This document shows, piece by piece, positions 27,750 through 62,021 of a stretch of DNA of 64,000 nucleotides. This DNA is from Nymphaea colorata. Taxonomy: Eukaryota > Streptophyta > Magnoliopsida > Nymphaeales > Nymphaeaceae. The notes beneath the pieces are model-generated. The model was given only the letters and a program-made list of their open reading frames with translations, made no database searches and was not told the origin of the DNA. The stretch lies in contig NC_045141.1 in the NCBI RefSeq assembly GCF_008831285.2, forward strand, positions 23,094,742 to 23,158,741, read 5' to 3'. Position numbers and translations under genes: made by a program. Position 1 is the first letter of the stretch, and the number at the start of each line of letters is the position of its first letter.

Positions 27750-27950
27750 AGTGATCTCTCCACTGTCTTTCGATTTATATGATCTGCTGCTTAGTGAGTC
27801 AGCAGGACTCATCACTTGTGTATTTCCCTTTTTCAGCTGAGAAAGAGAGAATTTCCGGAGCGATAGAGTTCCTTAGCGGCTTTGTTCCCCTCAAGAATCG
27901 GCTTCTTCCTCACAAGAACCTCTTGCTCTCTTTGTTCAAGAACCATAGCC

Positions 27951-29054
27951 ATGTTGGCGTCTGTTCCCAAGGCCACCACCTACCTCCCCACATGCCAACA
28001 CTCACCCCTGAAGAAAAGCTTCCTCCCTCCTCGAACTCTCCACCTCCCCACCAACGGCCAGCATCAAACCAGAACCCTCTTCACCACCACCCCTAAATGC
28101 ACCTTCCAGAACCCTAAACCAATTCAGACTGCCGCTGCCGCCGTCACAGCATCTAACACCGTCGCTACCCCTTCCGATGCCGTCGGCGTGTCCACCTTAT
28201 CTTCCCCTCAAGTTCGGGTGGACATCCTCTCCGAGTCGCTCCCTTTCATCCAAAAGTTCCATGGTAAGACCGTCGTCGTCAAGTACGGAGGAGCAGCGAT
28301 GAAGTCGCATGCCCTCCAGCAGGGCGTCGTCCAGGACCTTGTCCTCTTGAGCTGCGTCGGCCTGCGACCGGTCCTCGTCCATGGCGGCGGTCCAGAGATC
28401 AACCAGTGGCTTCAGCGACTCGCAATCGAGCCCCAATTCCTCAACGGCCTCCGAGTCACCGACGCCGCCACCATGGAGATCGTCGAGATGGTTCTCGTCG
28501 GTAAGGTCAACAAGGCCCTTGTTTCCCTCATTAACAAGTCCGGCGGCTCCGCTGTCGGCCTTTCTGGCAAGGACGGCCGCCTTCTCACCGCCCGACCAAA
28601 CCTTGCTGCTACGGGTCTTGGCTTTGTTGGTGACGTTGCTAGCATTAATCCCAAGATCCTCCATGCTCTCATCGAAAATGGCCACATCCCTGTGGTGGCT
28701 TCTGTTGCTGCCGACGAGGCGGGTCAGGCGTACAACATCAATGCCGATACGGTGGCAGGGGAGGTGGCGGCGGCGGTAGGAGCAGAGAAGCTGATATTGC
28801 TGACGGATGTGCCGGGGATCCTGATGGATCGGACAGACCCGGGGACAATAGTGAAGGAGGTAGACCTCAAGGGGGTGAAGCGGCTCATAGAGGAAGGGAA
28901 GGTCTCCGGCGGAATGATACCCAAGGTGAACTGCTGCATCCGTTCGCTGGCTCAAGGGGTGAAGACTGCAAGCATCATCGATGGCCGGCTGCCACACTCT
29001 CTTCTGCTCGAGATCCTCACCGACGAGGGTGCTGGCACCATGATCACAGGCTGA
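27951..29054 (+). CDS. NAGK: N-acetylglutamate kinase, chloroplast (EC 2.7.2.8), intronless
   Basis: Phosphorylates N-acetyl-L-glutamate in arginine synthesis, in the plastid stroma. In plants it is the arginine-sensitive, PII-regulated step. The frame gives 367 residues from the first ATG (GCCATGT context). The open frame extends upstream to 27882 but without an ATG. Residues 1-85 are rich in Ser/Thr/Pro/Ala and poor in acids, a typical transit peptide. The kinase domain starts near 87 ([16 protein letters not shown]). Conserved elements: KYGGAAM (K111), HGGGPEI (144-150), [39 protein letters not shown] (D266) and GGMIPKV (K325), ending in [10 protein letters not shown] like other plant NAGKs. 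Codon third positions are GC-rich, unlike the surrounding DNA. A single exon is usual for plant NAGK as far as I know. Confidence 0.97.
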
Positions 29055-45337: not shown

Positions 45338-46480
45338 GATGACAAGAGAACTCAAACGGTAAGCCTATGCCCTATGAATTGACTGGCACGGATAGTTTCC
45401 TACAGTTCATCTTTAAAACAAAGTTGCAAGATTCCGTATCATTTTCTACAAGATCCCGTATCATTTTGTAAAACCAGTTTGACATGTTTCATCATTTTAT
45501 AATGATCGTTTTTTCTTTCTCAATTGATTGAACCTTATTAACTATCATAGATTTTATTTGTGTCGTTAATTAAGTGTTTATATGTATAAACAGGCTTACA
45601 TTACGTGGGTGACGCACATAAGCTGATACGCCATTATTGACAAACCGATACAGAGACAAGGGACAACAGCGGAACATCTAATAAACCGTTCAAAATTTTC
45701 TCCTACTCTTGTAACTATTTGCAAGTTTTAACAAATTCGTCCTTCTAATTCTATGTGAGCATATGTGGTAGGACCGAAAAGTGAATGGTGCCAAGCTTTT
45801 AAAGACCTGAACCAAGAAGGTTCCATCCAATCAAACAAGATGGCTAACACAGTTAGGATGTGATTGTCTGATTGATGCCTTTCATGCACGAGGGGAACGA
45901 TTGCAAAATGATTAGAATGAAGCCACAGACGGAGAGATCCAGAAGGGGAAGGAAAGGAAAACCAGTTTTGATTCTAGAAGTCAGTCTCTATCATGGTCTT
46001 TAGCGTCACCAGCACGTACCCTTAACCATATCAGCTGTATAATTGATAGAGAGCAACAAGTTATCCTGTTGGAGAAGTTCCTGGTTAGGGGGAGCCAAAA
46101 TTTTAACTTCAAAGCAAGATGGGTGCCCACTACAACAACAAACATACAACCTTCAAATATAACCCTTGTCCTCTTTCATTGTTTATTTTTTATTACATAA
46201 GTCATTTCGTAAAGAAAGAGATGGAAACAATCGTCTTGGGATGACGTATTTATAGGAGCCAATATACACGTTTCGTTGCACGTCGCAACACACAATCTTG
46301 TTACAGTTAAAACGGACAACTCATAAAAGTTTAAATCTAATCATTATAAATATGAATATTGCAATCACAAGACACAAAGGGACTATGTAGGAAAGGAAAA
46401 TTCATACAATCCTGAATTTTTTATTTTCCCACAAACATGCTTATCGTTTCAGAATTTAGGCTTTGTGCTTAACTTCACGT

Positions 46481-46730
46481 AGCAGTTTATATGTTTACAT
46501 ATAAGAGATGAGGGCGTGAAAGCATGTCTCACCCTCTGGACATGCGTCACGGCATTCACATAGCAGTTTATATGTTTAGGTATAGGAGGAGACAACATGA
46601 AAACCCGTCCCACCCTATGGACAGACACCCCAACATTCACATAGCACTAGCAGTTTATATGTCAAGTAGGTGAGGGCATGAAAGCCTGTCCAACCTATCC
46701 TATGGACATGTCTTTTCCTCCCTGGCTACT
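46481..46730. repeat. Three diverged tandem units of about 81-87 bp
   Basis: Units start at about 46481, 46562 and 46649, each with AGCAGTTTATATGT, then G-GGGCATGAAAGC-TGTC-like text, then CACCCT-TGGACA. Divergence of 15-25 percent by eye indicates an old array. Confidence 0.75.
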
Positions 46731-47139
46731 ATGTGATAATTTCAAATTCAGTTTACTATTTATGTATAATGTGATTATACAAAAGATAAATTTACCGTTT
46801 ATACTCACCAAGTTAAAGTTTCTGATGTGGCCAATGCTTGCTTGGGTTTATATACTTAAATTTCGGAACTGCCCAAATAAGTTGAAACGCCTGTTCTGAA
46901 CAGTCATCTTCTGTAGTTCTGTTCCCGTTCATTCCAAGATTTCATAAGCCAGTCTATCGTAAAAGCCAAAACTTACCAGACCAACATGTGAGGGTCGCGT
47001 CTTTTGCCGAATCTCTTTCCTGTAAACTCCAAGTTAGAGATGCTAGAATGCAGGAAAGCAGTGGATGTCAACAAAGGGGCTGAATAACAAGAGGAAAAAA
47101 AGAAGGTAATTTAATATACGGTTTGCTTGAATTAAGATC

Positions 47140-47235
47140 TCATGAGTTGGGTAATGCAATCAGTTGGGTTGAGTGGCGTGTTGTAGCTATGTTCTTAGTT
47201 CGATTCTTAAAAGTACCATCTTAATGGTGTATTGA
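47140..47235 (+). mobile_element. tRNA-derived SINE-like relic
   Basis: GGTTGAGTGGCG and, about 30 bp on, TAGTTCGATTCT resemble pol III A and B boxes. Its structure parallels the relics at 42305, 58376 and 63140. Confidence 0.35.
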
Positions 47236-47795
47236 GAAATAGTGCCATTATCAAGTCAAGTGGAGGGGTTCTTGTCCCACTTCTTTTGTCTCTTTCCACT
47301 CCTCCAGGTGGACCAAAAATACGAAGGCAGGTGGACATTGAACCATTTTTGAAGATCAGGAAAAACATATCTCTTAAGTCAGAAGATGAAAAAATCTACA
47401 AGAGCAGAATAAGACCACTCATTTCATCATGCTCACGGCTCACCCTCTAAATAAAAGAAAGCCACACATAGGAGACTCCCACGCGTTGGAGAAAGAAAGC
47501 AATGAATTGTGGCGAGGGTTGGATGATGAAAATACTGAGATGTGTTTACATGTGAACCCTCCAAATTCAACAATGAATATAATAGTGGAGAAAATGATGA
47601 AATAGATAGCTGAAATACTGGAATAATAAAAGATAATTCAACAATGAAATTAAAAATGGAGAAAATAATTGCATTCCAGGGAGGAGGAAAGGCATTCTTA
47701 TTTTTGACGGCCTTTTTAGATTTGTCTGCAAATTTTAAGGTAACATAACGTTTATCGAACAGAAAAATGTCGCTTTCACTCATCCGAAGATCCAG

Positions 47796-48240
47796 GAGAC
47801 ATATTTATACCGACGCCGTGCCGGCGTGCCCCCGATTTGATTCGGCACGGACACTGTGTTGACGGAAGAGGAGGTCTTGACAAAAGAAGGCCGTGCAAGG
47901 TGAGCCTGATTTGAATTCCGATCGGAAGATCTCAGGTTCAGGGTTTCTCGAATTCAGTGTTGGAGAAACCCTCTTCCCCCGCTGCAACGAGGATTTCTCT
48001 CTCCCTCTCTCTCTCCGCGCCTTGCCGGTAAGTCCGTATCTCTCTCTTAGCCGGCCTAGGATTTTGCCGGTCGAAACCCTCGGCTATCCGTCAGCGTTCC
48101 GTCACAGTCTCCATCTTCACCAGCCGAGGGTTTCACCCTTTCAACGCGCCTTCGTAACAAAGACGCTCTCCACTCGTAAAGCTTTTAACCGTCACTCTTT
48201 TTGTTTCCTTTCCATCTAAAAAGATTCAGTTAGAAAAATG
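47796..48240 (+). other. Possible upstream promoter/leader region of the cytochrome c1 chimera
   Basis: A TATA-like CATATTTATACC at 47796-47807 is followed by CT-rich DNA and a good donor GCCG|GTAAGT at 48029/48030. This could be a noncoding first exon, but there is no ATG-led coding exon here and no independent support. Confidence 0.25.
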
Positions 48241-48400
48241 AGAGAAAGTGCGGTGTTTATGACATTATGCCTTAAGCTAGGGGTATTTCAGTAAGAAGAC
48301 TTCGGCTTAAGTCCAGCTCACCCAGCCGACGGTCTGGATACTCCACATCAAATCGGAGAAAGGAGGGCCACGAGGGACGAAGAGCAGGACGAGCAGGAGC

Positions 48401-48408
48401 TAGGGTTT
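48401..48408 (+). promoter_or_regulatory. Telo-box in the leader of the L15-derived first exon
   Basis: TAGGGTTT, the plant telo-box typical of ribosomal-protein genes, starts 19 nt before the ATG at 48420. The intact L15 gene has the same element at the same distance (58651), and the whole stretch from the box to the donor differs by one base. Confidence 0.75.
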
Positions 48409-48419
48409 CCGAGCCGACG

Positions 48420-51400
48420 ATGGGTAAGCGATTCCCTCCCCCCTTCTCTCTTTCTCTTTCCGTTCTCCTTGGTTTCTCCATCGTAGATGAGAAGATCATC
48501 TGACCTTGGAGAAATGCATCCCTTTTCAGTGGACGGATTGCGGTTTTAAGTTTTCGATTCGTCCGTTGTCTTACAATTTTCTTGGAAACTACTGGTGGGA
48601 TTGTCTTCGATATTATCCTCGTGATTTTTGCTTCTTGTTATATTTTTTCGTTGCTTGCTAGTTGTTTTGCACGACTTCTATTGTATATGTTGTCTGTATA
48701 TGAATATTTGGTATTGTGCTATTAGTACATGAAGTTACATTCATAGTTCATATCGTTATCGGTTCCCTTTCCGCCGTATATAGGGTTTGGGATCTGCAGG
48801 TATCTGTTTTTTTGGGATTACTGTTAGAAAATTGTTGTTTGCTGGAGAAATGGTGAGGATGAATATACTCCATCGTATGGTTTGATTATAATGGACAGTC
48901 AGTAATGATTGATATATCTGAATGAAGTGTTGATATATCACTACGTAAACCTGTAATTGAATAATTTTAACTAAAAGTAAACCTGTAAAACGTCGTCGCG
49001 TTTCTGAAATTATAACCGGGGGCAACCTCGATGACAAAGCAGTGCACCGGGCTCAAGCAGACGGCCCACATCCGGTTCAAATCGGACGGACATCGTTCAT
49101 CTAAAACCAAAACCCTGAAAAACCTAATAAAGCGTCGCGGGCGTCCGCCTCTTCCCCTCCGTTCAGGCACAGGAAGAGGCGGGGAGGTCTAGGCTTTCTG
49201 AGCTGACGATGGGTAAGCTCTCTGTCTCTCTGTCTCTCTCTCACACACATGGACGAGAATTGTCTCGATACCGTCCTTGTCTTCTTCATCGTGTTTGAGG
49301 ACTTCTCATTTTGGAGAAATGCAATTCCTTGCTAGTCAATTATGATGGTTTTTTATGCGTTTGTTCTGTTTACTGACCGTCGTTCAGGGGGTGGGATGGG
49401 TGGCGGGAATGCTTGTGAAGTGTCTTCACCGAAGTCTGTTGTAGTTTCTGCTGCCTACCTTACCTCCTCTTTGATAAAGGTTTCCCACCATTTGTCTTGC
49501 ATTCTCTTTTGTGATTGGTGGCCGTGGCGTTTCTTTCCTACTGTATCGATGCGTGATCTTACGATATGAGCTTGGGTTTGTGGTTCCATTGACCGCCGTA
49601 GTTTTCTGTGGGTTTGATGCATATTACCTTTTTATTTTCGGCTACATATGCTTGTTTTTAATGTGTTATTAGATTAAGATTTGGTTTTCTTTGTTCCCAT
49701 GTGTAGAATTTCGTGGCAGTTTTGACTTGAAGTGTCATGCTTATTTGATTTTGATTTTTCATTTTATGATTTCCGTAAGACTGCTGTTGTTTGGCCAAGT
49801 AGCGATCTTTGAAAGCTGAGACGTGCACTGATATTCTAAATAGATGAAACAGCTGATTTGTCTTCTCTTTGTGGTTTTGTTGCTTTTAGATTATTTGTCC
49901 TTGTCCTGCTGTGCCGCTTGGGAACTCTTCAATGAGTTCTTAGTGATACATCTGCTGATTGTTCGATCTGCTTTTGGTGGATATTGTAACTTTGCATTCT
50001 GTATATATTTTCTTTAATACTTGCTGTGTGTATGTGCACACTGACACAAACATGTGTCTACTTGAAGATGTTGTTGCATAAGAAGCCTCAATAGGTGAAG
50101 CACTGAAACCTAATCAAGGTTTACGTTCTGTCGTTTTGCCCTCAATGGTTGCTATTAGTCTCTCGGTCTCGTTATTAATGGTGGATGATGTTATGTTATA
50201 TTAAAACTACATTTTTGAAATTGAAAATAACTTGAATGAATTTAGGGTACCAATGCATTTTGAACTGGGTTGAGAACATTCTCATCATCTAACAAGTCGG
50301 GTCTCGTCTCCTTTTTCAATAATGGTTGAATTTTTTTTTGGTTGTCAAGAAGCAATGAGTAGGAATATATGTAGTCTTATAAGTATTATCTGACTGCACC
50401 AATCTATCTGTAGTTGTATTTGTTAGACAAAGGGTGAAGGATGAAATTTCAATTTTAATCTGCAAAATAATGAAATGACAGTTTCTACATTTGTTCAATT
50501 GGTTCTACCTTGGTCCGGACGGTAGGATCATTGGGTTTCAAGGAATGTAAACTCCATATTTATATATGAGGCTGAAGGGACAATAATATGTCATAGACTT
50601 GATTCAGGAGTTTAGTATCCTCATGATTCTGAAGTGACAATAATATGGCATTGACATAGATGATTCAGGAGTTCACTGTCCTCATTATTATGTTATGTTT
50701 AGGGGCTTACAAGTATGTCTCCGAGTTATGGAGGAAGAAGTAATCTGATGTCATGAGATTTTTGCAAAGGGTGAGGTGCTGGGAGTATCGCCAACAGCCT
50801 TCAATTATGCGATTAGGACATGAAGTTAGGTTCATAGTTCAAATCGTTATCGGTTCCCTTTCAACCTGTATATAGGGTTTGGGATCTGCAGGTATCGTTT
50901 GGGATTACTGTTAGAAAATTGTTGTTTGCTGGAGAAATGGTGAGGATGAATATATTTCATCGTATGGTTTGATTATAACAGATTGGAACGAAGTGTTGAT
51001 ATATCACTACTTAAACCTGTAAGTGAATAATTTTAACTAAAAGTAAAAATGCCGGGAAAAGATGCAAATGTTAAGAGGAAATAATGTTACATTGGTGTGG
51101 TATCCAAAACCATGCGTGGCTAGTCATATTGGATAATATGAGATCGGAGAAACAAAATGCAGACCGTAACATCAGCCTTCGATTATATTATTAGACTTTT
51201 AAATCCAATATAATGTCGAGAAAAATGTTATGTTATCACTCAACAGGCTGATCTGGTCTTTCGCATGGAGTTATCAAAATTTATTTAGATTTTAGAGTTT
51301 AGACTTGTTTCAAACATTTTTTTCTTTTAAACTGAAGAGATTGTTGTGTCAATGAAAAAAATGCCCAAATGATGCTCAATTGAGATGAAAGCTGAGACTT

Positions 51401-54400
51401 TACGGCAGTATTAGGTTATGTATGGCTGTTGATTTATATCCTCTTTTAAGTCCTAATCAGTAGGAAACTGTTTCTTGATATAACTGCTGATTGTTTGGTC
51501 TTTTGTTGGTGATGTACATTGGGGTGCTTGAGTGTGGATTTTGTATAATGTGCAGAGTGAACTTGGTCATGTTTTTAATTGGGCTGAATTCTGAGTCCAT
51601 TCTGATCTCTGATGAAATTTCTATCAACATGTGAATTGAGCTCCTTTTTCCAAGGATTCTTCCCAAGTAGTTACCAAGCAAAGAATGTTTGTGTTAAAAT
51701 TTTTAAAGAAGAAAATGATAGCAAGGATTTTGAGTATCCTAGACACTACCCAATTGTTTGATGGAAATGGGACACCGCCCCACCAAAAAAGATTGAGCAG
51801 GGGCTGAACTTCCTCTTAGTTTCTAAAGGAATAAAATGAAAATTTACAATCTATTAGACTCATTACGTATTCTACTTATGAACCTGTTTAGGAAATGAAT
51901 TACTTGACTTGTGGTATATTCAGGAACCTACAAGTATGTCATAGAATTGTGGAGGAAGAGTGCTGACAAGGCTCGCCATTTAGGCTACAAAGCCACACAG
52001 GTAATTTTCTTATTATTTACTGCTGTGCAGTTTCAACATTACTTTTTTCAGATGTTGCAGTATGAAAACCTGTTTGAAATTTAGTGTTTTTCCACTTAAT
52101 TTCTATATTGCACTTGTGATTCAGACTAGTATTACTACCTCTACTTTGTTTTATTGACTATTGCTCGTGAATTGTGATTGAGGCGGCATTTGGAAGGCCT
52201 TGTGATCATTGGATTTCCTTGAGCTTTTAGAAAGAAAAAAAAATGTCCTTTCGAAAGTTGAAGCTTCTTACAAGCCTGATCCTGTCATCACCAATCTCAG
52301 TTTTGATTCCCTGTTCATTTTTGTGAATGCCGATGCTGCCTGATTGAGCAAGCATTGTAAGAATTTGCCCATTTCTCTGCTGTTTCCTATCTTTTCTGAT
52401 TGAGGTTCTTGATTGCTCTGTATGTTAATAATTGGCAATGTTTCTATAGCTGCTGCTACTCTCTTGGGGACATTGATTTGTTTTTTAATGCATATTTCAT
52501 TTTGGATTTCTACCAGTGATTACAGAAAAAGAAAAGTTGAAAGGGGATGCAAAAAATATAATATTCATTTTCTAAAAAATTCTGCAGTATCTCTTAATCA
52601 TAGTCCCACATACTGAACTCAGTTATACATTGGCGAGCCAGAATTTCATACCAAATCTCAGAAAATGTAGGTAAAAAGTTTAAATATGAAAAAATTGCAA
52701 AACATACTTGATCAGTGGGCTATTATGCACTCTTTCAAAGATGGTTGCTTCGTTTCAAACCTCCTGTTTGTCTCTGCGCCTTACCTCCTTTATCTCCTTT
52801 ATCACTGGGCAATCATTTTGGGGCCTTAGCTGATGATATGTGCTGCTTCCCTCTTGATGATGAAGCTTATCCCTGTCTATGAGCGATAATAAAAAAAAAA
52901 TAATGAGAAGAAATAAGGAACACTGTTTCTATTATATAAGAAAGAAACCAGAAAGTAATAAGCAAGTTATGAAAACAGTTTACAAAAGGCTGTTACATTT
53001 TCCCTTTGATATTGTTTTAGGAAAATCTCACTTTGATATTGCGATATTTTCAAAATATCACTTATCTGTGGCACACTCTTAGCTTGACATTTCATTACCT
53101 TGAGGCTTTGCTAATTTATTATATTTCTGATTTAGTGGAATCAACTATTATTGTTTTGCTATTTCGTTGGTGAATAAATAGTAGTCGAGTTAATTTATAT
53201 TTCAATCTGCAAAAGCAAGTGTATTTTGCTCAGCATTGGCAACATATGGAAGGGAAGCAGAGTCAATTTCCAAGCATATCATACCAGTTTTAGTTTCATC
53301 TAGTCCCATAACAAATTAGAGCTCTCTATGCAACACCTTTTTTGTTTATTTGGTTTATGTCCTTGAAATGCATGCCTCACATGGCAATTTCTTTGTTCAC
53401 CTTTTTGAGTGTACAAACTTTGCATTATTGGACAGAAACAACTATAGTATCCAATTGTTTCTAGTCTGCATGTTTCTTGCTGGCTATATGTAGAGGTTTG
53501 TTTTCAGTTTGTCAAAGATTTTGTATATGATGTGAATGCAGTCAACTGTGTATTCTACTTAGAGATTTATGAAAATGTTAAATAACAGGATGGATGTGCT
53601 CTCTATTCTGGTGTCAGTTATGTTGGTAGTTTGGTCATAGAAAGCCACTGCCAGCTTTTGTCCAAGCTCTATGGGACAAAAAATTTTAATCATTGTGACG
53701 GCCTTGCCTTTTTTTGTTTTCCGTTTGTTCAAACTCTGAAAAAAGGTATTAATTCCTGTTTTCTTTTGTACGTTTTGTACCTATAAGCTTGAGTTTTTAC
53801 CTTCTTTGAGTCTACCAAACTTGGGTGCTTCCACAGGAATTAGGGAATCAGTGTCCATATTTATTACAGAAATGGTGATGTGGTTCCTTCTTTTGCAGGC
53901 TCATCCAGTTCCTTCATCTTTTGTGTTGAAGCAAGAGCATGGTGATGCTTGGTCTGCTGGTTCAAAGTCTCTAAGGGCATTGGCTTTTCTTGGTGCGGGA
54001 ATTTCAGGAATTCTAAGTTTTGCAAACTTGGCTACCGCTGATGAGGCAGAACATGGCTTGGAATGCCCAAGTTATCCTTGGCCCCACAAGGGGATACTTA
54101 GTTCCTATGACCATGCATCGTAAGAAGATGCTTAATCTTTGTATATTCTGTTATACCTTAGGAAAGAAAATGAAGAAACCTTTCTTGTTAAATATACAAT
54201 TTAAGTTTATCAAGGTCCATGCATTATCAATTTTCCGTAAGTGCAAGGTCATGCAATTTTGATGCTTGGAAATGCTTGGACATTTTTTTGCTTCCTGTTT
54301 CTTTAACTTGATGTTAGATAACTCTTCCTATCCATTTGCTTTTCAGGATATTTATTTGTAGGTTTAGCAGTCTTATGAATATGCTTGTAGAATATTTATG

Positions 54401-55813
54401 TTGCCTGTAACACACAAATGTAGGATTCGTCGAGGTCACCAAGTTTATCAGCAAGTTTGTGCATCCTGTCATTCAATGTCTCTGGTTTCATATCGCGACC
54501 TTGTTGGTGTGGCATATACTGAAGAGGAAACAAAGGCGATGGCGGCTGAGATTGAGGTTGTTGATGGTCCCAATGATGAAGGTGAAATGTTTACCCGACC
54601 TGGGAAGTTAAGTGATCGTTTCCCCCAGCCATATGCTAATGAACAAGCTGCAAGGTTTGCTAATGGTGGGGCCTATCCCCCAGATTTGAGTCTTATTACA
54701 AAGGTGCAATTCTCATTATGATGCTTGAAGAGCCTTCTGGGTTTTCCTTCAATCTCAAATCTCTCTTACTGTGTTACCTCTTCTCGTTTTCTTGGGTGTT
54801 GTGCAGGCTCGGCACAATGGTCAGAACTATGTTTTTGCCCTTCTCACTGGCTATCGTGAGCCACCAGCTGGCATATCGGTAACTAACTAACTCTCTTGCT
54901 CATAAGTTGTGTTGTTTATGCTTTTTCTATATTTTCCTTGGTGATGATATCTATAATGGAATTACAGATTCGAGAGGGGCTACATTACAATCCTTATTTC
55001 CCAGGTGGTGCCATAGCCATGCCACAAATGCTCATTGATGGTGCAGTTGAATATGAAGATGGTACACCTGCAACAGAAGCACAGGTAATATTATTTATGT
55101 TTTACCCAAATTTTCTAGTTTTCTGCTTTCCTGAGAGGAATATAGAATATTGAATGTTTCTTTGGTTGACATGTTGATCATGACTGTCAAATATGGCCGG
55201 CCTTGTTGCTGTCTACTGTAAAGAGAATTGTGTATGGAATTGATAGATGTTTCACTAGTAAGGGCCTTAATTGACCAAAAACTGCACTCTGTACTTTAAG
55301 CAATAATAAGATTAGCAGAATTAGCGGAGGTGGGATGTTTGATTCAGAACTTGGAATATGATAGAGAGAGAGAGGGAGAGAGAGAGAAAGAGTGAATGCA
55401 AATGTGTGAAATTGCATACTTCCATGTATAGTAGCTGCCATTTTCTATCTTAGCACTGCTCAGAGTATCTGCAATTGACATTTGAATGATGAATTCTGAA
55501 CACTAACTCAACGAGTGATTCTCAGATGGGGAAGGATGTGGTCACATTCTTAGCATGGGCAGCAGAGCCTGAGATGGAGGAGCGGAAACTGGTAAAGTTG
55601 TTTTGGCTTAGCAGTAATTTCGTTTGATTTTTATTATCTTTCATTTGCTTGATGGATGTGCAGCTTGATTTCTGGTTATGATATTTCTTCATGCAGATGG
55701 GTTTCAAGTGGATATTTGTTCTCTCGCTTGCTCTTCTTCAGGCTGGTTATTACCGCCGGCTAAGATGGTCTGTACTCAAGTCACGCAAGCTTATCGTCGA
55801 TGTTGTTAACTGA
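48420..55813 (+). CDS. CYC1: Cytochrome c1, mitochondrial, with an L15-derived presequence (predicted chimera)
   Basis: Haem subunit of respiratory complex III, anchored in the inner mitochondrial membrane. Conserved exons: 53899-54119, 54424-54703, 54807-54878, 54968-55084, 55526-55591, 55697-55813 (290 residues). Visible: inner-membrane sorting stretch [21 protein letters not shown], haem-binding CASCH (about 113-117), [15 protein letters not shown], axial Met in GGAIAMPQ (about 236), and C-terminal anchor [15 protein letters not shown] (about 280-294). The proposed 5' exons are 48420-48423 (ATG G) and 51924-52000, homologous to L15 exons 1 and 2. They add 27 residues and give 317 in all (Arabidopsis about 307). 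Exon 51924-52000 ends in phase 0, exactly what GCT CAT at 53899 requires. No native presequence exon was found between 47.8 and 53.9 kb. The cytochrome part is certain; the L15 joining is a strong inference. AATAAA at 56049 is a candidate poly(A) signal. Confidence 0.85.
48728..48977 (+). repeat. Left copy of a 250-bp direct repeat flanking the nested L15 pseudogene
   Basis: ACATGAAGTTACATTCATAG through TTTTAACTAAAAGTAAA matches about 50816-51050, with small gaps. The two copies bracket the L15 pseudogene block exactly. Confidence 0.9.
48978..50815 (+). pseudogene. Truncated ribosomal protein L15 copy nested in the chimera's intron
   Basis: Closely matches 58439-60232 (intact L15 promoter, exon 1, intron 1 and most of exon 2). 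Exon 1 ATGG is at 49209-49212. Exon 2 starts at 50703 and reads [13 protein letters not shown], then TAA at 50741 where the intact gene has CAA. Homology stops near 50808, within exon 2, where unrelated sequence follows. The telo-box is mutated (TAGGCTTT at 49190) and the TATA box is degenerate. It has no exons 3 or 4. A dead, fairly recent duplicate. Confidence 0.92.
50816..51050 (+). repeat. Right copy of the 250-bp direct repeat
   Basis: Begins ACATGAAGTTAGGTTCATAG at the point where L15 homology ends and runs to TTTTAACTAAAAGTAAA. See the left copy at 48728. Confidence 0.9.
51924..52000 (+). other. Shortened L15 exon 2, proposed presequence exon of cytochrome c1
   Basis: Flanked by TATATTCAG and GTAATT. 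The intact L15 exon 2 is 167 nt and this one 77 nt; the missing 90 nt are exactly 30 codons. Retained parts match both ends: [12 protein letters not shown] (intact [12 protein letters not shown]) and [13 protein letters not shown] (intact [13 protein letters not shown]). The donor matches the intact gene for six bases. Reading from ATG G at 48420 there is no stop. Basic residues K5, R12, K13, K17, R19, K24 against E9 and D16, with V7, L10, W11, A18, L21 on one helical face. Confidence 0.85.
52001..53898 (+). other. Intron between the presequence exon and cytochrome c1 proper
   Basis: 1898 bp, AT-rich, ending in a clear polypyrimidine acceptor CTTCTTTTGCAG. No L15 exon 3 homology and no typical cytochrome c1 presequence exon were seen. 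An in-frame ATG at 53872 sits in the acceptor region (MVMWFLLLQ before AHPVP). Confidence 0.6.
55360..55396. repeat. (GA)n-rich run in cytochrome c1 intron
   Basis: GAGAGAGAGAGGGAGAGAGAG in the intron between exons 55084 and 55526. Confidence 0.85.
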
Positions 55814-58375: not shown

Positions 58376-58440
58376 CGTGTGGATTTCTGATGTAGTTACT
58401 GCCTAAGCTGTCCTGGGTTCGAGCTTTCTCAAAGAAAACT
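58376..58440 (+). mobile_element. Possible SINE-like relic upstream of L15
   Basis: GGGTTCGAGCT (58414-58424) resembles a pol III B box, preceded by GTAGTTACTGCC at the right distance for an A box. It directly abuts the start of L15 homology. Weak. Confidence 0.2.
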
Positions 58441-58448
58441 TATAAAAA
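58441..58448 (+). promoter_or_regulatory. RPL15: TATA box of the intact L15 gene
   Basis: TATAAAAA at the 5' edge of the L15 homology block. The nested copy has TGTAAAAC at this place. Confidence 0.5.
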
Positions 58449-58520
58449 GTCATCGCGTTTCTGAAATTACAATTGAGTAAGGGGGCGATCTCGATAAGAA
58501 AGCACCGGGCTCAAGCAGAC

Positions 58521-58526
58521 GGCCCA
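58521..58526 (-). promoter_or_regulatory. RPL15: Site II element (TGGGCC) of the L15 promoter
   Basis: GGCCCA on the plus strand is the TCP-binding site II motif, common in plant ribosomal-protein and respiratory-chain promoters. It is paired here with the telo-box TAGGGTTT at 58651-58658. Confidence 0.6.
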
Positions 58527-58669
58527 GATCCTCCGGGTCAAATCGGACGGACATCGTTCATCTAAACCCAAAACCCTGAAAAACCTAATAAAGCGTCGCG
58601 GGCGTCCGCCTCTTCCCCTCCGTTTAGGCACAGGAAGAGGCGGGGAGGTCTAGGGTTTCTGAGCCGACG

Positions 58670-62021
<3,352 letters not shown>

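Follow-up and report, generated by a model that had tools for sequence, protein, structure and literature searches.

A cytochrome c1 gene lies on the plus strand of a 64,000-nucleotide stretch of Nymphaea colorata DNA (G000:C4:23094742-23158741), hereafter the window, whose positions are used throughout. An intact gene for the cytosolic ribosomal protein eL15 adjoins it. The two exons predicted at the front of the cytochrome c1 gene are homologous to eL15, and the gene is probably a chimera in which captured eL15 front exons took the place of the usual presequence exon. Genome searches covered 407.8 Mb in 783 contigs (G000); C4 denotes the contig of the window, and C3 and C12 the contigs that carry a cytochrome c1 paralog and a second eL15 gene, respectively. 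The predicted gene model and the intact eL15 gene are as follows.

48420..48423, plus strand: eL15-type exon 1 (ATG G), copy 1; leader and donor match the intact eL15 gene (donor score 6.2, equal to that of the intact gene)
51924..52000, plus strand: shortened eL15 exon 2, copy 1, 77 nt; with exon 1 it gives the predicted 27-residue front (alignment and splice-site scores)
53899..54119, plus strand: first conserved cytochrome c1 exon, with the sorting segment and the start of the mature protein (homology and splice scores)
54424..54703, plus strand: cytochrome c1 exon with the heme site CASCH
54807..54878, plus strand: cytochrome c1 exon
54968..55084, plus strand: cytochrome c1 exon
55526..55591, plus strand: cytochrome c1 exon
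55697..55813, plus strand: last cytochrome c1 exon, stop included
58670..62021, plus strand: intact eL15 gene with four exons (58670-58673, 60121-60287, 61209-61406 and 61776-62021), presumed to be a close relative of the donor

The six cytochrome c1 exons are intact from 53899-54119 through 55697-55813. The spliced cytochrome c1 model scores 333.3 bits against PF02167 (cut-off 22.8) and contains CASCH, a CxxCH site. With both front exons, the predicted chimeric protein has 317 residues. The product of the intact eL15 gene is a normal protein of 204 residues.

The front exons are homologous to eL15

An initial annotation of this DNA had described an L15-type exon 1, an exon 2 shortened by exactly 90 nt and an in-frame junction with cytochrome c1, and all three descriptions held. 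Exon 1 reads ATGG followed by the donor GTAAGC, and one base differs from the intact eL15 gene in the last 20 leader bases; BLASTN aligned 48400-48429 with 58650-58679 at 96.7% identity. Exon 2 measures 77 nt, compared with 167 nt in both the C4 and C12 eL15 genes, and has an AG acceptor, a GT donor and no stop codon. Its end at 52000 is in phase 0, and the joined open reading frame continues into 53899. The statement that eL15 exons 3 and 4 are missing was also borne out, as the genome search with eL15 listed neither between 52000 and 53899. The locus thus has front exons homologous to eL15 and a phase-0 junction, the sequence features expected of presequence capture by exon shuffling.

The eL15 peptide scored 62 in 51001-53898, whereas the best of 100 mononucleotide shuffles reached 38, and a genome search with the 27-mer returned one match, its own locus (E 7.8e-12). 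The 27-residue front stayed below the curated cut-off of PF00827 (14.2 bits, E 0.034, cut-off 27), so its eL15 homology is drawn from the alignment to the neighbouring eL15 genes and not from that score. Intron 1 of copy 1 resembles eL15 introns marginally (0/100 shuffles as good for C4, 1/100 for C12). Splice sites were scored with simple matrices that were not trained on this genome. By these scores the donor at 52000 is the best of 441 GTs, none of the 379 other AGs scores as high as the acceptor at 53899, and the acceptor at 51924 ranks eighth of 379.

A second eL15 fragment and candidate promoters

The proposed first intron contains a second eL15 fragment, which the initial annotation had overlooked. 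This fragment, its flanks and a possible upstream leader comprise the following features.

48971..50806, plus strand: copy 2, a partial duplicate of the intact eL15 gene (promoter, exon 1, intron 1 and the first 104 nt of exon 2)
49209..49212, plus strand: copy 2 exon 1 (ATG G), from alignment and splice scores
50703..50806, plus strand: remnant of exon 2 in copy 2; its codon 15 is an in-frame TAA (50741-50743, position counted from the sequence), and it ends before the eL15 donor
48713..48981, plus strand: duplicated block, left copy
50804..51047, plus strand: duplicated block, right copy (94.2% identity without 27 gap columns)
47802..48027, plus strand: possible upstream promoter and 5' untranslated exon (TATA-like site at 47802, ATG-free 47838-48027, donor at 48027), inferred and with no assigned gene

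Copy 2 aligns with 58428-60224 of the intact eL15 gene at 89% identity when gaps are counted and at 94.1% (105 mismatches in 1767) when the 99 gap columns are dropped. The flanking block, about 250 bp long and present on both sides, has just these two matches in the genome. The equal divergence of insert and flanks (94.1% versus 94.2%) suggests that both arose in one insertion event, and the flanking duplication looks as if a staggered break had been repaired with a patch copied from the eL15 gene 8-9 kb away. An intron distance of 0.065, compared with a synonymous distance near 0.58 for copy 1, suggests that copy 2 was inserted much later. Because exon 1 consists of ATGG only, splices from 49212 or from 48423 to 51924 would give an identical protein. 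Within the exon-2 remnant, 50753-50824 forms a basic amphipathic start of eL15 origin that ends in phase 0 at a donor scoring 4.1.

The initial annotation also gave the chimera a ribosomal-protein promoter. This remains plausible, but in the alignment copy 1 lacks most of the eL15 core promoter, whereas copy 2 carries it together with an equivalent exon 1. AAACCCT/AGGGTTT and GGCCCA are motifs of ribosomal-protein promoters. In the alignment of copy 1, most of the stretch between the common TCAAATCGGA and the leader is missing, including the AAACCCT...AACCTAAT part, and the leader retains one AGGGTTT. No GGCCCA element occurs in the 250 bases upstream of copy 1; both copy 2 and the intact gene have it. 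If such a promoter is used, copy 2 is therefore a likelier source of it than copy 1.

Further upstream, the donor at 48027 scores 9.9 and ranks second of 441. The lack of ATG in the putative leader is not significant: a fraction of 0.06-0.14 of shuffles were ATG-free in the five leader models containing 47838-48027. The ATG at 47767 (MSLSLIRRSRRH...) was considered as an old presequence exon and rejected, as its frame has stops and it is absent from the list of one-exon candidates described below. Imperfect repeats of about 71-74% identity occupy 46474-46710, upstream of the gene.

The cytochrome c1 gene is constrained and has a paralog with a different front

The paralog on C3 provides a comparison for the C4 gene.

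G000:C3:24779512-24783018, minus strand: C3 paralog of cytochrome c1
L001 3719-3609 = G000:C3:24782908-24783018, minus strand: first exon of the C3 paralog, targeting-like (MNSSRMMGLCRALANGFGRSSYSSSRGLCSETAGIRP) and matched nowhere else in the genome

From DEAEHG on, the two proteins share 235 of 243 residues, and the downstream exon layout is equal. They differ at the front, where the C3 gene has an unrelated, model-predicted first exon, and its acceptor lies some 30-37 nt further inward. Since 32 nt of the C3 intron end align with the start of the C4 exon, the paralogs differ in both first exon and acceptor. Position 53932 has the same phase as 53899, and a later acceptor in the C4 gene would keep the fusion in frame.

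Between the mature C4 and C3 proteins, the nonsynonymous distance (dN) is 0.016 and the synonymous distance (dS) 0.72. Eight differences were found in 242 aligned sites; judged against Arabidopsis, mung bean and chain 8zno, two are C4-derived, two C3-derived and four ambiguous, so that C4-specific changes show no excess. Among the PDB chains used, we take 8bel to be from Arabidopsis, 7jrg from mung bean, 8azw from tobacco and 7qiw from tomato. The low dN and the lack of a C4-specific excess indicate that the C4 gene has been maintained, and a working front end is therefore expected.

Synteny did not single out C3 or C12 as the partner from a whole-genome duplication: the 45-kb gene and an acetylglutamate-kinase-like gene, the two neighbours tried, have no second match in G000. 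The open frame at 27882-29054, which resembles an acetylglutamate kinase, has a single match in the genome. At G000:C351:1333-1746, on the minus strand, there is a weak match resembling cytochrome c1 (E 6.3e-4, 31% identity), which is perhaps foreign or a contaminant.

Age of copy 1

Over 25 aligned codons, copy 1 differs from the C4 eL15 gene with dS 0.58, dN 0.11 and five amino-acid differences; over the same codons the C4 and C12 genes differ with dS 0.57 and no amino-acid difference. The full-length dS of the C4-C12 pair is 0.82 (NG86) or 0.55 (YN00). As its dS is near these values, copy 1 is old, about the age of the eL15 pair. A count by eye in the alignment divided its exon sites equally between C4-like and C12-like. 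The Y in LGYKA, common to three plant eL15 chains, is a hint that copy 1 predates the divergence of C4 and C12, although one site is no proof.

Predicted targeting properties of the 27-residue front

The 27 residues had been proposed to act as a presequence. The net charge of +4 given with this proposal was confirmed, but the peptide includes two acidic residues, and its maximal helical moment of 0.65 is matched by 15% of its own shuffles. The corresponding moments are 0.77-0.78 for Arabidopsis CYC1-2 and the C3 paralog, both of which are free of acidic residues over their first 27 positions. The sorting segment behind the 27-mer is retained in the conserved cytochrome c1 exon. A role of cytochrome c1 as an Imp2 substrate fits a two-step sorting. 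Cytochrome c1 is named as such a substrate in PMC8847149.

Probable exon capture and alternative explanations

Exon capture is the best-supported explanation of the anatomy of the locus because the junction is in frame and in phase 0, the splice sites rank at the top, the downstream gene is constrained and no exon of a known presequence type was found upstream. This anatomy is the portion of the original interpretation that stood; its targeting portion is weaker, and its promoter portion had to be revised.

The absence of an ordinary presequence exon, also claimed initially, was supported by searches of 45400-53898, the region upstream of 53899. The plant type (MxGGGVIRQLLRRKLHSQ) was not found there, and the Arabidopsis, mung-bean and C3-paralog presequences did not rise above shuffled DNA, their best scores being equalled by 79, 80 and 26 of 100 shuffles, respectively. 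A genome search with the Arabidopsis presequence, run without a positive control, found nothing. We also scanned for other fronts. Fifteen two-exon models were obtained, among which the two eL15 models have the highest summed splice score. The other 13 use a short exon in the duplicated block, either 50892-50939 (12 models) or 48800-48852 (one model), and the block shows no trustworthy rise in conservation at these sites. One-exon fronts of at least 8 residues gave 36 candidates with a best donor of 7.4. Just two reached a net charge of at least 3 and a moment of at least 0.6, with donors of 4.1 and 3.2, and one of them (50753-50824) is itself eL15-derived, from copy 2. None of the four shorter fronts with a donor of at least 6 was targeting-like.

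The copy 1 exon has about 9 inferred substitutions, compared with 16-23 expected under neutral evolution from the beginning (Poisson P 0.04 to 0.0006); raw differences are 12/75 to the C4 and 13/75 to the C12 gene. Constraint has thus probably acted on the exon during some of its history, though not on it as a normal eL15, and the data would also fit neutral evolution late in that history.

Several points weigh against exon capture. The figure of 9 substitutions is a minimum, as the hand-typed ancestor takes the copy 1 state wherever C4 and C12 differ. At 9 changes neutrality is not rejected (the probability of at most 5 amino-acid changes is 0.44), and 22% of simulations with 9 changes keep the open frame, ATG and splice dinucleotides; that the deletion is in frame would contribute a further factor of about one third. 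Past constraint as an eL15 gene could also have caused the low divergence. The acceptor threshold of the two-exon scan was the candidate's own and hence favours the eL15 candidate. The real donors of the C4 cytochrome c1 gene score just 3.6, 4.8, 4.5, 8.8 and 6.4, which keeps the two qualifying one-exon rivals possible; five more one-exon rows, with net charge +5 or +6 and moments of 0.57-0.58, fall slightly below the chosen cut-off. The presequence search could have missed a true first exon that is strongly diverged. In an attempt to map the breakpoint, the intron 52001-53898 resembled neither eL15 intron 2 nor C3 cytochrome c1 intron 1 (68, 83 and 90 of 100 shuffles were as good for C4 eL15 intron 2, C12 eL15 intron 2 and C3 intron 1); this null says little, however, because intron 1 of the two intact eL15 genes also fails to align (59/100 shuffles as good). 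Finally, the substitution-free eL15 piece would have a net charge of +6 and a moment of 0.77 and would be more presequence-like than the 27-mer, so that changes since the capture made the 27-mer less presequence-like; with its moment of 0.65 and two acidic residues, the 27-mer would be a mediocre, unremarkable presequence.

The main rival explanation, which we consider unlikely yet serious, is that the eL15 exons are a decaying tandem duplicate and that the true presequence exon is a diverged one at another site between 45.4 and 53.9 kb, perhaps following the leader at 47.8-48.03 kb. Neutral decay is compatible with the exon data alone, the donor at 48027 together with the TATA-like site at 47802 suggests an upstream leader, and the quite different first exon of the C3 paralog indicates that first exons of this gene vary. 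The weak real donors make some of the 36 one-exon candidates possible. On the other hand, the best of these donors is 7.4 and two of the 36 combine the charge and moment above, the three known presequences do not exceed shuffles, and frame, phase and the region's best donor would all have been kept by luck. It is improbable that the C4 gene recently lost its first exon and is turning into a pseudogene, with C3 as the sole working gene. The C3 paralog is complete and has a presequence-like first exon, and a very recent loss would leave no trace in these data; however, all C4 exons and splice sites are intact, dN is 0.016 against a dS of 0.72, and C4-specific replacements are not in excess. A translation start at the ATG at 53872, with no coding exon ahead of it, is very improbable: this ATG is in frame with the first conserved exon, but the open frame would run through the region's best-scoring acceptor, and the resulting N-terminus (net charge -1, moment 0.29) would have its first lysine or arginine no earlier than residue 20.

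Proposed origin and relation to known systems

Under exon capture, a duplicated eL15 gene would have been placed immediately in front of cytochrome c1, with exon 2 losing 90 nt in frame and exons 3-4 disappearing. The eL15 exon 2 would then splice, phase 0 to phase 0, to the first conserved exon of cytochrome c1, replacing the usual first presequence exon, and the 27 eL15-derived basic residues would serve as the matrix-targeting part ahead of the retained cytochrome c1 sorting segment. Later, a 1.8-kb duplicate of the front part of the intact eL15 gene would have inserted into the first intron, bringing an eL15 promoter and a second equivalent exon 1. Splicing, promoter choice and import of the chimera are here deduced from sequence.

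The work on a GAPDH-derived presequence of cytochrome c1 is reportedly that of Long et al. in 1996, and the species are said to have been pea and potato. That the plant cytochrome c1 presequence came from GAPDH by exon shuffling is cited in PMC5610209 and PMC2031878. The present case has the same recipient gene, and likewise front exons of a cytosolic housekeeping gene would have become a mitochondrial presequence through exon shuffling. It differs in that the donor is eL15, in that two exons with a 90-nt in-frame deletion are involved, and in that an intact relative of the donor adjoins the chimera and a later, promoter-bearing insert lies in the first intron. An exon-duplication case from 1996, cited in PMC2031878, is similar in that a nuclear gene gained a mitochondrial presequence by duplicating an existing exon; judging by its title, however, the donor was already a targeting signal, whereas here it is a cytosolic ribosomal protein. 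Our literature searches, with most subscription papers outside their coverage, turned up no paper that describes L15 as the donor of a cytochrome c1 presequence. The best reading is that eL15 is a new donor for a kind of event already known from GAPDH in other plants.

It is conceivable, and we put it forward tentatively, that the eL15 N-terminus was pre-adapted as a targeting signal and, in one of the two cytochrome c1 genes, took over from the presequence. The later eL15 insertion would then have renewed the promoter and the start exon, and a subunit of complex III would now be driven like a ribosomal-protein gene. The C3 paralog, with its different first exon, serves as an internal control. 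If exon capture is true, plants have recruited the targeting signal of cytochrome c1 from genes of cytosolic housekeeping proteins at least twice, from GAPDH and from eL15, which would support the view that the basic N-terminal segments found in cytosolic proteins can serve as presequences as they stand. With the donor's relative, the chimera and the later promoter-bearing insert all within 14 kb, the steps of a presequence replacement would be readable at this locus.

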